Of a stretch of DNA of 64,000 bases, positions 39,996 through 43,629 are shown one piece after another. The first letter of the stretch is position 1; each line of letters opens with the position of its first letter. The notes beneath the pieces were generated by a model that saw nothing but the letters and a program-made list of their open reading frames with translations, was not told the DNA's origin and made no database searches. The DNA is from Acidobacteriota bacterium (GTDB lineage: Bacteria > Acidobacteriota > Terriglobia > Acidiferrales > UBA7541): assembly GCA_003223215.1 (NCBI GenBank), contig QHYH01000084.1, positions 124,001 through 188,000 on the forward strand, in the 5' to 3' direction. The position numbers and the translations under genes are program-made.

Positions 39996-41297
39996 CTAAA
40001 ACAGCCCCGTATAGGTGAGAATCAGGGTCAGCACGATCATCCCAATCGCGGTCACCCACGCCACGATGTTGTAGGTCATCGTGTTGACGTACTCGCCCAT
40101 CAAGTCCCGCCGGTTCACCAGCAATAAGATAAAAATGACCACCACCGGCAGCCAAATTCCGTTGCCCACCTGTGAAAAAATCAGAATCTTCCACAGCGGG
40201 GCACGCGGCAAAAGCACGACCCCAGCCCCCACCACGATCAACACCGTGTACAACCAGTAGAAGATCGGCGCTTCGGCAAATTTGTGGTCAAGCCCGGCCT
40301 CGAATCCGAGTCCTTCACAAATGACGTGAGCTGTGGAAAGCGGCAGAATCGACGCCGCAAACAACGAAGCATTCAACAGGCCAAACGCAAACAGCGTGCC
40401 CGCCCATTTTCCCGCCAGGGGAATCAGCGCCTGAGCCGCCATCGCCGCGTCGTTGATGTTGCGGTGGCCGGAGGCATACAGAGTAGCCGCCGTACAAACG
40501 ATAATGAAGAATACGATCACCATGCAGCTGACGCTGCCGAAAATGACATCCGCGCGTGCCTGCGGGTACTGCCTCGGCCCAACCTTCTTCTCCACAAAAC
40601 CCGCCTGAAGATAGAAAAACTGCCACGGCGCAATCGTCGTCCCGATCAGCCCCGTCAACATAACCAGATACCCCGAATCCAAGTGCACGTTTGGAATCAC
40701 CGTGTGCTTTGCGGCAATCAGCCAATCGGGCTTGGCCAGAACGGCGGAAAATACATAGGACAAATACAATACGCAGGCAAAAAGAAAGATGACTTCCACC
40801 TGCCGGTACGTTCCCTGAATGACCAGAATCCAAACGAGTATCGCCGCGAGCGGAACCGCGACGTATTTGCTCACATGAAAAATTTGCATGGCCGCCGCGA
40901 CGCCGGCGAATTCCGCAACCACGTTGGCCAAATCCACAAAAAAACCCGTGATCATCACGAAGAACGTCGGGCGGAATCCGAATTCTTCGCGAATAAGGTC
41001 GGAGAGGCCCTTTCCTGTCACCACCCCCATGCGCGCGCACATCTCTTCGGTAACGTACAGCGCGATGGTCATCGGAATGAGCGCCCACAGGAGGGCATAG
41101 CCGTACTGGGCGCCGGCTTGGGTGTAAACGGTGATCCCTCCGGCATCGTTGTCCACATTGGAGGTGATCAGTCCCGGCCCGATCACCGCCAGCAACAGTA
41201 ACAGCCGCCGCCGCAGGCTGCGCAATCGCTTCTGCAGGCTGGCGCCGTGATTCTGCAGATTTTCTACGCCCGATCTCAACAATACCGCCCAGTTCAC
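39996..41297 (-). CDS. NRAMP (SLC11)-family divalent metal transporter, motif-divergent
   Basis: A 433-aa inner-membrane protein with about eleven helices. The overall NRAMP pattern is clear (LLAVIGPGLITSNVDNDAGG in helix 1; MCARMGVVTGKGLSDLIREE after helix 2). The classical metal-binding motifs are changed: helix 1 DPGN becomes DNDAGG, and the helix 6 MPH region reads TTIAPWQFFYLQ. Motif-divergent SLC11 clades include Mg2+ transporters (NRMT), so Mg2+ or Mn2+ are both possible. It starts 20 bases after a protein with MgtE_N and CBS domains, which points to a common metal-transport role. Confidence 0.85.
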   Translation of the reverse strand: MNWAVLLRSGVENLQNHGASLQKRLRSLRRRLLLLLAVIGPGLITSNVDNDAGGITVYTQAGAQYGYALLWALIPMTIALYVTEEMCARMGVVTGKGLSDLIREEFGFRPTFFVMITGFFVDLANVVAEFAGVAAAMQIFHVSKYVAVPLAAILVWILVIQGTYRQVEVIFLFACVLYLSYVFSAVLAKPDWLIAAKHTVIPNVHLDSGYLVMLTGLIGTTIAPWQFFYLQAGFVEKKVGPRQYPQARADVIFGSVSCMVIVFFIIVCTAATLYASGHRNINDAAMAAQALIPLAGKWAGTLFAFGLLNASLFAASILPLSTAHVICEGLGFEAGLDHKFAEAPIFYWLYTVLIVVGAGVVLLPRAPLWKILIFSQVGNGIWLPVVVIFILLLVNRRDLMGEYVNTMTYNIVAWVTAIGMIVLTLILTYTGLF

Positions 41298-41317: not shown

Positions 41318-42559
41318 CTAGCGCTTCAGCAGATGGGAGACCACGTCGTCCACGGCAATCGCCCCGATCGGTCGGTTGTCCTTATCCACTACCGTCAGCG
41401 TCCGTAAATTGTACTTGTCAAAGAGCTGGAACACCTCCTTCGCATCGGCTTCCGGCGCCAGGCTGACCAGAGGCTCCATCTTCAGCCCCGCCAAGGGCTC
41501 GTCTGGCGCTGCCAGAAGGATCCGCACCACGGGAACCACACCGGAATACTGGGCCTTGTGATCCAGCAAGACCACAGCGTCCAATTGGTCGAAGCTCTGG
41601 TCCTGCTTGCGCATCCATTCGAGCACCTCTTCCCGTGTCGCGGACTCGCTTACAAACACAAACTTCGTGTTCATCATGCCGCCCGCGGTTGCCCGGTCGA
41701 ACTCCAACAATTCGCGAACCTCCTTCGCCTCGTGCCCGGGCATCTCCTCGAGCAATTCCTCCGAAGTTTCCTTGGACAAGTCCGCAAGCACGTCGGCGGC
41801 GGCGTCGGGTGCCATTTCCTCCAGTATGTCCGCGGCCTTTTCCGGATCGAGATCCTCGACGATCTGCGTGGTCAGCCGTGCGTCCAATTCGCCCAAGACC
41901 GCTGCGGCAGTCTGTTCGTCCAGGGAGGCAATGATGCTCTGGCGTTCCGAAGCCGAAAGTTCTTCCATGATGTCCGCCAGATCAGCGGGATGCAGGTCTT
42001 CGAGTTTTTCGTGGGTGATGCGCAGCTTCACGCGCCGCAGGGGATCCGGTTCAATTAGGTTGACAAACTCCCAGCGGATGGAGCGCTGGGGCAACTGGCT
42101 TTGCAGCTTGCGCACCACCTTGGAGGGAACCACGCCTTGCAGCAGCCGCCGGATCGCCCCCGGAAGCCCCACGTCTACCTGCGTCAGGCGTAACTCCACA
42201 TTGCCGTTCGAACGTTGTTCCGCCAGGTCGAGGTCGTTCACGCGCACAACTTTTCGTCCGCGCGTGTCGATGATTTGCTGGTCCAGCAGGTCTTTCTGCA
42301 CCGCCAGCCACGACTCGTTCGGCTGATAAATCTCGAGTGCCTTTTCTCCTACGTTCAGCCTTATCTTTCCATCGGACACCGAAGCCACTTGATTGTGCTT
42401 GGCCACCAAAGGCTGAAAGTGGCCGCGCGACAGCAAAAAGTGCGAGATGCGATTGGGGGCCTCCGCAGGCTCGATGAAGAATTCGCGGACGCGCCCCACA
42501 TAGTTCCCTTGGACGTCATAAGTCTTGACGCCCATCAATTCCGTGGCGTAAAGCTCCAT
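41318..42559 (-). CDS. PRC-barrel / MgtE_N / CBS protein without membrane domain
   Basis: A 413-aa soluble protein. Residues 1-75 and roughly 88-145 look like two PRC-barrel-type beta domains (VKTYDVQGNYVGRVREFFI; IIDTRGRKVVRVNDLDL). Residues ~190-290 are an MgtE intracellular N domain, with repeated helices such as LHPADLADIMEELSASE and LDPEKAADILEEMAPDAA. Residues ~290-413 are a CBS pair (GGMMNTKFVFVSESATREEV; NLRTLTVVDKDNRPIGAIAVDDV). In MgtE these domains gate the Mg2+ channel; here the channel part is absent and an NRAMP gene follows. AGGAGGTGA precedes ATG 42559. Likely a metal-sensing regulator of the transporter. Confidence 0.88.
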   Translation of the reverse strand: MELYATELMGVKTYDVQGNYVGRVREFFIEPAEAPNRISHFLLSRGHFQPLVAKHNQVASVSDGKIRLNVGEKALEIYQPNESWLAVQKDLLDQQIIDTRGRKVVRVNDLDLAEQRSNGNVELRLTQVDVGLPGAIRRLLQGVVPSKVVRKLQSQLPQRSIRWEFVNLIEPDPLRRVKLRITHEKLEDLHPADLADIMEELSASERQSIIASLDEQTAAAVLGELDARLTTQIVEDLDPEKAADILEEMAPDAAADVLADLSKETSEELLEEMPGHEAKEVRELLEFDRATAGGMMNTKFVFVSESATREEVLEWMRKQDQSFDQLDAVVLLDHKAQYSGVVPVVRILLAAPDEPLAGLKMEPLVSLAPEADAKEVFQLFDKYNLRTLTVVDKDNRPIGAIAVDDVVSHLLKR

Positions 42560-42628
42560 GGATTTTCACCTCCTGCCTTCGCTCCGGGCCAGGCGGCGGG
42601 TTGGCCTCGGGAAGCCCCGGCCGGCAAC

Positions 42629-42663
42629 AAAAAACCCGCTCACCGAAGAACCTCGGCGGCGGG
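42629..42663 (-). terminator. Intrinsic terminator in the leader of the MgtE_N/CBS-NRAMP operon
   Basis: Minus strand: CCCGC pairs with GCGGG, with an inner CCGA/TCGG stem and loop GGTTCT, followed directly by TTTTTT (plus-strand A run 42629-42634). It lies 70 bases upstream of the start codon at 42559 and 28 bases after the leader ORF stop, so it is placed to act as an attenuator. The upstream CYTH gene ends 325 bases earlier, too far to need it. Confidence 0.65.
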
Positions 42664-42691
42664 CAAGTGTCTGACAGGATTGGACTTACCT

Positions 42692-42844
42692 TTAGCCGCC
42701 GCTGAACCCTCCCCAACCCACCGGTTGTGCCTTTGCCTGGGCCGTGCGCGACTCAATCGGGATTGGCAACCCTTGAATCCGTTCTCGGGCACACAGCTTC
42801 CAGAAGCTTTTAGGGCCAGGCTCGAGTTCGTTGCTCGTGCTCAT
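42692..42844 (-). CDS. Candidate 50-aa leader peptide
   Basis: ORF inside the ~320-nt leader, from ATG 42844 to TAA 42692. Early codons specify NELEPGPK and later ones GLPIPIE, acidic and proline residues as in the MgtL leader of enterobacterial mgtA, where such codons destabilise ribosomes at low Mg2+. Its last codons (FSGG) contain GCGGCGGC (42695-42702), which can pair with the 5' arm of the terminator at 42654-42662. Full translation would mask that pairing and favour termination. No good Shine-Dalgarno is seen before the ATG, which is a weakness. It could also be an unrelated small protein. Confidence 0.4.
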   Translation of the reverse strand: MSTSNELEPGPKSFWKLCARERIQGLPIPIESRTAQAKAQPVGWGGFSGG

Positions 42845-42895
42845 CGAAAGGGTCCACGTAATCGTTCGTGACCGCTTTGGCGGTCTCCCATTGCA

Positions 42896-42924
42896 TTGAT
42901 AAGCTGCGCTTATCGCAATGTCAA
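42896..42924 (-). promoter_or_regulatory. Sigma70-type promoter with embedded inverted-repeat operator
   Basis: Minus strand: -35 TTGACA (42919-42924), a 17-base spacer and -10 TATCAA (42896-42901), near consensus. Inside it GATAAGC (42898-42904) and GCTTATC (42908-42914) are a perfect 7-bp inverted repeat around TGC, with TTGC/GCAA flanks at 42891-42894 and 42915-42918. A dimeric regulator bound here would cover the -10 element. Transcription would start near 42888, about 330 bases before the MgtE_N/CBS start. Confidence 0.65.
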
Positions 42925-42987
42925 GCGCAGAATGAAGTTTCATCAAATTTTTTTCCAATCCAGCTACTCCGGCAGGCGAGAACCAGA

Positions 42988-43629
42988 CTAGGTAAAAAGC
43001 ATGTGCACGGGCTCGACACCCTTGCGGCGGCACTCTTCCAGGTACAAAGTGAGGTAGCTCTTCAAGACATAGTCGCCTTTCGAATAGCCCAGCTCCGTGG
43101 CGGCTCGGTCAATCGCGCCGCCCGGCCCTTCCAGTTCCACATAGGTCCCGATCGGCGTCTCATCCAGCTCAATCAGCAGCCCCCGCGCCCAGGCCTTCGA
43201 AGCCGGAAGTCGGAAGGTGGTTCGGTACTTCTCATAGCGGAACCAACCGGCCAGCCCCAGCCCTTCAAAAATCGTCGCGAGCGTTGCGGCATCTGCGACT
43301 TCCATCTCGATCTCATCCCGCAGTTTGTGAGGGCCATCCGCAAACCCCTTTCCGTCCGAAGCTGCCGGCTTCGCGACGGGCCTCTTGAAGGTCAGCAGCA
43401 CGCGCGGCCGCTGCTTTCTTGGCTTTCCGCCGCCTTCGAGTGTCTCGGTGCGAATCCGGAGCAATTGGGCATGTTTCGCCAACCCTCCCTGCGGGGTGTC
43501 GAAAATGACGTTTTCCTCATGTACTCTGCCTGCTCCCGAGAGGGCGGGCTGCGCCCCGAGCTTCTTCAAAAGCCTCCGGAAGGCCTTTCGATCCTCGATC
43601 TTTAGCTTGATTTCTCTCTCGTGCGCCAC
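42988..43629 (-). CDS. CYTH domain protein (class IV adenylate cyclase / triphosphatase-like)
   Basis: A 213-aa soluble protein with the ExExK signature at the N-terminus (EREIKLKIE). Other tunnel strands show charged residues typical of the family: LLRIRTE, VLLTFKRP, RDEIEMEV, YRTTFRL and LLIELDETPIGTYVELEG. The family acts on triphosphate compounds (thiamine triphosphate, inorganic triphosphate, ATP) with Mg2+. Which substrate is used cannot be told. It is divergent from the oligopeptidase gene and upstream of the metal-transport operon, from which a separate promoter divides it. Confidence 0.9.
   Translation of the reverse strand: MAHEREIKLKIEDRKAFRRLLKKLGAQPALSGAGRVHEENVIFDTPQGGLAKHAQLLRIRTETLEGGGKPRKQRPRVLLTFKRPVAKPAASDGKGFADGPHKLRDEIEMEVADAATLATIFEGLGLAGWFRYEKYRTTFRLPASKAWARGLLIELDETPIGTYVELEGPGGAIDRAATELGYSKGDYVLKSYLTLYLEECRRKGVEPVHMLFT

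Follow-up and report, generated by a model that had tools for sequence, protein, structure and literature searches.

Amino-acid attenuators of the trp and his type consist of a leader ORF, an antiterminator and an intrinsic terminator. The enterobacterial mgtL leader acts through a Rho-dependent terminator and on mgtA, which encodes a P-type ATPase for Mg2+ import. The EPDP sequence of MgtL is described as the site of ribosome drop-off at low Mg2+ (PMC11282234), and the Pro codons 3, 5 and 7 of the mgtA leader, all of them CC[C/U], are proposed to need m1G37 from the Mg2+-dependent TrmD (PMC6335274). Further, early acidic residues are reported to destabilize the ribosome, an effect that both high Mg2+ and a filled exit tunnel suppress (PMC9718836). 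Operons with an mgtE fragment and nrmT, the same gene pair as the one studied here, have been described with an M-box or no riboswitch, and a leader peptide goes unmentioned in the parts of the source that we draw on (PMC4072509). According to the portion of a 2010 survey used here, almost none of the predicted attenuators were assigned in the phylum Acidobacteriota (PMC2965389). In the open-licence literature we found no report of an acidobacterial mgtL-like leader, nor of Nramp and MgtE together with a leader peptide or NrmT attenuation.

Here we study a stretch of 64,000 nucleotides (the window) from the 8.8 Mb genome of an Acidobacteriota bacterium; the features of the locus are listed in Table 1. 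Judged by comparison with relatives, the leader element is real and conserved, and it recurs in orthologous operons of Ca. Acidiferrales (Acidobacteriota). The window leader is more than chance, because the ORF, the motif, the stop position, the hairpin and the pairing are all found again in these relatives, and in this respect what a sequence-only reading observed earlier is confirmed. What the sequence comparison gives is a conserved ORF with an early [E/D]-P, a stop near a terminator hairpin and an alternative antiterminator hairpin. We consider it probable, at roughly 0.6, that transcription of a Mg2+-type transport operon is attenuated here in a translation-coupled manner, the Mg2+ response being the part that we infer.

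Table 1. Features of the leader and of the operon behind it in the window.
Feature	Position	Strand	Description
Promoter	42896..42924	-	TTGACA 42924-42919, 17-nt spacer, TATCAA 42901-42896; read by eye
5' hairpin	42870..42885	-	GACCGC-CAAA-GCGGTC; read in the window, by eye missing from several relatives
Leader ORF	42692..42844	-	50 codons, MSTSNELEPGP...VGWGGFSGG; ATG 42844, TAA 42694-42692
Motif E8-P9-G10-P11	42812..42823	-	codons 8-11, GAG CCT GGC CCT; proposed Mg2+-sensitive site
Antiterminator outer helix, 5' arm	42695..42701	-	CGGCGGC; last ORF codons
Antiterminator inner helix, 5' arm	42684..42690	-	GGTAAGT; directly past the stop codon
Antiterminator inner helix, 3' arm	42662..42668	-	ACTTGCC; overlaps the terminator base
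Antiterminator outer helix, 3' arm	42654..42660	-	GCCGCCG; inside the terminator 5' arm
Intrinsic terminator	42629..42664	-	13-bp stem, one bulge, T6 tail
Gene A	41318..42559	-	PRC-like + MgtE_N + CBS, without the MgtE membrane part
Gene B	39996..41297	-	Nramp-family transporter closest to EleNRMT; NDAGG and TTIAPW motifs

The best reading, by analogy, is that the window leader works like mgtL, yet is not mgtL. Both have a short leader ORF, an early acidic/Pro motif, CC[C/U] Pro codons and a Mg2+ transporter, a probable one in the window, downstream. In both, full translation would lead to termination and early loss or stalling to expression, as described for mgtL in the parts of the sources used here (PMC11282234, PMC6335274) and as proposed for the window leader. 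However, the gene, the terminator, which is of the intrinsic type in the window, and the peptide are different. Leaders of the window type have 26-70 codons (71 leaders), stand before an MgtE_N + NRMT-like operon instead of mgtA and belong to another phylum, and the Pro codons of the window leader are 9 and 11 instead of 3, 5 and 7. An added Rho site at such leaders is possible. With amino-acid attenuators the leader shares the ORF, the antiterminator and the intrinsic terminator. It differs from them in that the peptides have, by eye, no shared run of one regulatory codon, with Pro once or twice in the motif, and in that completion of the ORF would be what is sensed.

The window promoter had been called near-consensus, which is generous: its elements are present, but the -10 TATCAA matches the consensus at 4 of 6 positions and a consensus promoter scan does not report it. 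In the relatives a TTGA[CT] is found 25-160 nt upstream of the leader ORF in 70/71 leaders. A palindrome, GATAAGC-GCA-GCTTATC (42914-42898), overlaps the promoter spacer and the -10; it was rejected as an operator, as by eye it is not retained in relatives. A palindromic repeat of the type TTGACCGC...GCGGTCA lies upstream-adjacent to gene A in L018 and L019, and the similar 5' hairpin of the window may, like it, be a mobile palindromic repeat.

Gene A is found in 80 of the 89 genomes of the window's family (f1), and upstream DNA was read at 79 of these 80 loci, 31 in the window's genus and 48 in others. Two genomes of the genus with a partial gene A (G005, G025) were left out of the reading. 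The joint analysis of leader ORFs comprises 71 leaders, with four more (L089, L090, L093, L103) added afterwards. At L035, L037 and L050 there is no such leader ORF, L050 having a 13-codon ORF without the motif, and L040 stands outside the counts, as it ends close to a contig edge. The ORF in the window has exactly the start, length and stop that had been claimed for it.

The NELEPGP stretch pointed out earlier proved to be the conserved part of the peptide. An [E/D]-P occurs within residues 2-19 in 62/71 leaders, against 9.1 expected when each peptide is shuffled. Of these 62 leaders, 45 have the acidic residue exactly at position 8, a count that the picking of start codons can favour, as this was done by hand with relatives as guide where several were in frame. 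At the same time residues 2-7 diverge widely (MSTSNELEPGP, MERSSNSEPGS, MSYSLDQEPLP, MSESEELEPFP, MSPQTEQEPLP). Five of the 17 leaders with the motif off position 8 have an ATG, GTG or TTG placed so that a start there would restore this position. In the four leaders added later the motif is present in three, with the acidic residue at position 8 in two. The nine leaders without [E/D]-P are L008, which is of the same genus as the window and has K-P instead, two of the four from genus g12, both from g6, the sole ones from g2 and g8, and two of the 16 from g4.

Both the acidic codon of the motif (GAG 30, GAA 26, GAC 3, GAT 3) and the stop codon of the leader (TAA 32, TAG 30 and TGA 9 in 71 leaders) vary, indicating that the constraint is at the coding level. 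The pN/pS of the motif is 0.18 in g3, 0.26 in g5, 0.49 in g4, 0.90 in g1 and 1.79 in g7, all with wide intervals.

The weak point of the attenuator reading is that there is no normally spaced Shine-Dalgarno before the leader ORF. This had already been seen in the window, correctly, and in the whole set such a site is found in 5/71 leaders, with 4.1 expected. In 45/71 leaders, against 6.1 expected, a GGAG-like word is found at 10-18 nt from the ORF start; the window ORF is without even this word. Gene A itself is preceded by a Shine-Dalgarno-like word in 59/71.

Around the intrinsic terminator of the window, 47 nt have a folding energy of -22.3 kcal/mol, compared to -12.5 +/- 2.4 for shuffled sequences, with none of 200 shuffles as good. 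The terminator escaped a simple scan for such elements, probably on account of its bulge. In all 71 leaders a terminator-like hairpin follows 15-33 nt after the stop codon, a range that is partly set by the search, which considered T tracts 30-110 nt past the stop only and accepted weak ones; the distance is 27 nt in 24/31 of the genus. In some g5 leaders the T tracts are poor. In the genus leaders 88.5% of the terminator cells are paired, compared to at most 53% in slid controls.

The proposed antiterminator is formed by CGGCGGC(UAAA)GGUAAGU pairing with ACUUGCC(C)GCCGCCG. The sequence-only reading had placed GCGGCGGC at 42702-42695, where it is indeed found, its core pairing with GCCGCCG, but had overlooked the helix of GGUAAGU with ACUUGCC. 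As this second helix adds to the first, the predicted antiterminator is a hairpin of 13-14 bp. In the window its energy is -17.5 kcal/mol, and 156/200 shuffles fold equally well. In 28 leaders of the genus 96.4% of its cells are paired, against 22-61% when slid, and for the inner helix the fraction is 99.5%. The outer helix is held in a 4-bp register at 90.9%; for the 7-bp helix described earlier, in its exact register, 74% of the genus cells are paired.

Covariation was sought in both stems. The antiterminator shows none in the genus, with one-sided changes only and 450/500 shuffles reaching its score. The terminator scores 0.078 versus 0.044 for shuffles, of which 1/500 reaches it, but two of six slid controls surpass it (0.106 at -1 column, 0.087 at -3 columns). 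RNAalifold, run on alignment A1, from which L023, L024 and L029 were excluded for their diverged 3' parts, returned the terminator, one small local hairpin and no antiterminator.

In other genera the sequences differ, while the geometry recurs: the end of the ORF pairs with the inner terminator arm and the RNA past the stop with the base of the arm. In a test on 50 leaders, prior to the last 21 being added, the mean pairing of the stop region with the terminator 5' arm beats dinucleotide-shuffled sequences in 10 of 11 genera (mean z -1.13). It fails in g6 (z +0.32) and is weak in g5 (-0.08) and g12 (-0.35). For individual leaders the pairing is within the best 5% of their own shuffles in 15/50, with the window's own at 10.5%. 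A lack of conservation had been named beforehand as what would refute the reading, but the ORF, the E-P motif, the stop-terminator spacing and the mean antiterminator pairing are kept across genera.

Another pairing, between the E-P codons and the 3' part of the ORF (GAACCU:GGGUUC), was dropped. In 28 genus leaders 154/168 of its cells are paired, against 149.7 +/- 1.4 when shuffled (9/2000 as high). It was abandoned because the duplex energies fail to beat shuffles, with a mean z of -0.25 in g1, -0.53 in g7 and above 0 in six other genera.

A ribosome standing at the stop codon would shield about -15 to +12 nt, both antiterminator 5' arms included, and leave the terminator free. At sufficient Mg2+ the ribosome would reach the stop and block the antiterminator, so that the terminator would form and the operon be off. 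At low Mg2+ it would stall or drop off at E8-P9 and leave the stop region bare. This region would then pair with the terminator 5' arm, and RNA polymerase would proceed into genes A and B, turning the operon on. The early E-P would be the site of a Mg2+-sensitive destabilization of the ribosome, to which CC[U/C] Pro codons in need of m1G37-tRNA may add. The early position of the motif would fit with a destabilization that a filled exit tunnel suppresses. Both Mg2+ as the signal and drop-off, instead of stalling, as the fate of the ribosome are inferred.

For the Pro that follows the acidic residue, the 62 leaders use CCU 43 times, CCC 11 times, CCG 7 times and CCA once. CC[U/C] is thus used in 54/62, while in 61 gene A copies it makes up 41% and CCU 9.6%. 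The Fisher p-value is 3e-27, a figure that is overstated, since related sequences are counted separately. This bias would also be seen if the same attenuator used the codon as its sensor: at low Mg2+ TrmD would undermethylate tRNA-Pro (m1G37), CCU and CCC would be read slowly and the ribosome would stall before the end of the ORF. The mgtA leader ORF uses the same codon class at positions 3, 5 and 7 according to the part of the source used (PMC6335274), and in g1 the motif is conserved also at synonymous sites. However, a sensor of this kind leaves the acidic residue and its position 8 unexplained, 8/62 leaders have CCG or CCA, and although CCU predominates in g1, g4 and g3, CCC does so in g5, g7 and g13. 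We regard the codon as sensor as unlikely.

Gene A matches the cytosolic part of MgtE (2yvy, 93 bits) and, with 125 bits, stays short of the 233-bit cut-off for a full-length MgtE. For gene B the best solved relative is 7qia, with 330 bits versus 122 for the best MntH and with the NDAGG and TTIAPW stretches in common. We take 7qia to be EleNRMT; the record itself is titled 'divalent metal cation transporter'. Against the MntH model gene B is far below the cut-off (148 of 430 bits). The TM6 motif [IV]APW follows gene A in 72/73 loci with enough sequence, the exception being L186, which by eye has M-box words, and NDAGG is present in 67/73. By its altered TM1/TM6 metal motif and its closeness to EleNRMT gene B is NRMT-like, and the operon probably encodes a magnesium transporter.

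The metal may still differ from Mg2+, as a distant relative of gene B from another acidobacterium, A. capsulatum, prefers Mn2+. In the part of the study used here it gives full rescue of Mn2+ transport and only partial rescue of Mg2+ transport, and growth of a Mg2+-transport mutant is rescued only in low millimolar Mg2+ (PMC4072509). The signal could then be Mn2+ or, alternatively, general translation capacity (Pro-tRNA, EF-P). For the latter, loss of EF-P is reported to raise mgtA mRNA via the interspersed Pro codons of mgtL (PMC6460261), and any slowing within the ORF would give the same outcome. Mn2+ is at odds with the bit scores above, obtained in a comparison set without the A. capsulatum protein. 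Further, the MgtE sensor domain, the NRMT-like gene B and an M-box on the orthologous gene all count for a Mg2+-type operon. In our view a signal other than Mg2+ is rather improbable.

With the gathering threshold of Rfam no family was found for the leader in the window or in L002, L029, L053 and L055, and at E up to 5 the stretch 42400-43000 of the window gave chance-level matches only. The M-box (ykoK, RF00380) has no match in the window, nor in the 61 f1 genomes among 101 searched with strict filters; any M-box was found in only four of the 101 relatives, all of family f6. Outside the window's family, however, 10 loci have, according to cmscan, an M-box immediately upstream of the orthologous gene A (L067, L060/L173, L174, L175, L178, L185, L187, L188, L189, L197), where it occupies the same place as the window leader and is, by eye, followed by a terminator. 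Seven of these loci are assigned to f6, and L175, L178 and L189 are without family assignment. The scans used two sets of 18 loci each, the second of which included M-box loci already known from the genome search. At L180 and L182 the M-box lies ~1.8 kb further upstream of gene A, and an Acido-Lenti-1 RNA (L180:271-316, 37.8 bits, gathering 37) is seen upstream of the M-box in the former. Among 16 sampled f6 loci, M-box words are present in five, plus L220 by eye, and none were seen in the other 10.

In families f7 and f11 the inspected upstream stretches of 24 loci contain no comparable leader. In f8 gene A is found in 5/7 genomes, and at all five loci (L201-L205) GGGGGC or GGAGGC is followed, after 4-5 nt, by an AUG-stop (UAG 4, UGA 1), ~175-306 nt upstream of the aligned start of gene A. 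The f8 terminator is preceded by GCCUCC, which is able to pair with the Shine-Dalgarno of this element; these duplexes outdo shuffles by no more than 1.4 sd, and the one in L204 does not outdo them. The element is possibly a start-stop attenuator. Tentatively, one operon may carry exchangeable Mg2+ sensors on the same kind of terminator: the M-box, the E8-P9 leader peptide in the window's family, and in f8 the AUG-stop with 70S stability as the sensor; we lean somewhat against this idea. By eye, a 12-codon acidic/Pro leader (MEAERKMKAEGP in L183, MEAEQKTTAEGP in L184) is seen ~200-280 nt before gene A, ending in UAG or UAA and followed by a terminator.

A model of the leader (R1) gives one strong match (E below 1e-9) per genome in 30 genomes of the genus, before gene A, and phage records contain no match. 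In addition, there are 19 weak matches elsewhere, of which seven were inspected: five are Cys-rich leaders, one is a Thr/Ile leader and L194 shows nothing clear. In each of the former (L190, L191, L192, L195, L196) a leader ORF with many Cys codons precedes a terminator. By eye, the genes behind four of these five resemble those for sulfite reductase (L190, L195), a sulfate-binding protein (L192) and a rhodanese (L196). Such leaders in Acidiferrales are probably cysteine attenuators. The leader ORF at L193 (~805-975), MISRSQNPSPAKWAHILIMRTTTDTPSGAAGS, has Thr/Ile/Met codons before a terminator and is a possible Thr/Ile attenuator.

The middle of the leader peptide is near neutral, with a pN/pS of 0.70-1.15 in the five genera tested. 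The LPIPIE motif, which had been thought relevant, is located here and is not conserved. Of the earlier proposal of Mg2+-type attenuation via an intrinsic terminator, this motif and the exact helix register fall away, while leader conservation, the M-box in relatives and the NRMT-like gene B support the rest. The end of the peptide, on the other hand, is constrained at the amino acid level in two genera (pN/pS of the last 8 codons 0.31 in g4 and 0.46 in g7), as it would be if the C-terminus were the sensor and slow release or arrest at the stop set the time for which the antiterminator is blocked. However, the values are 0.74 in g1, 0.79 in g3 and 1.72 in g5. Further, the C-termini vary between genera, with VGWGGFxGG in much of the window genus and REARPGLx in much of g4, and since they share nucleotides with the arm pairing with the terminator, RNA constraint may account for them; a sensor at the C-terminus is quite improbable.

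That the terminator just ends transcription of the CYTH gene, which lies on the same strand and ends ~145 nt upstream of the leader ORF start, and that the ORF, which is inside a longer open frame, arose by chance, is very hard to reconcile with a motif and with start-motif and stop-terminator distances that recur in 71 leaders around a near-neutral middle, or with frames +1 and +2 being open in 2/71 and 10/71 leaders (18.2 of 71 are expected to be open in frame 0 in a base-shuffled control).

On the sequence evidence, the window leader would seem to be a counterpart, of independent origin, to the mgtL system of gut bacteria. If this is true, Mg2+ sensing via the behaviour of the ribosome on a short leader would have arisen outside enterobacteria, and a leader peptide would stand in for the Mg2+ riboswitch that an orthologous gene has. 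With an acidic residue at position 8 amid divergent sequences, one could test directly whether ribosome destabilization follows a chain-length rule, and the CCU bias would allow the amino-acid model of mgtL to be separated from the tRNA-methylation model.
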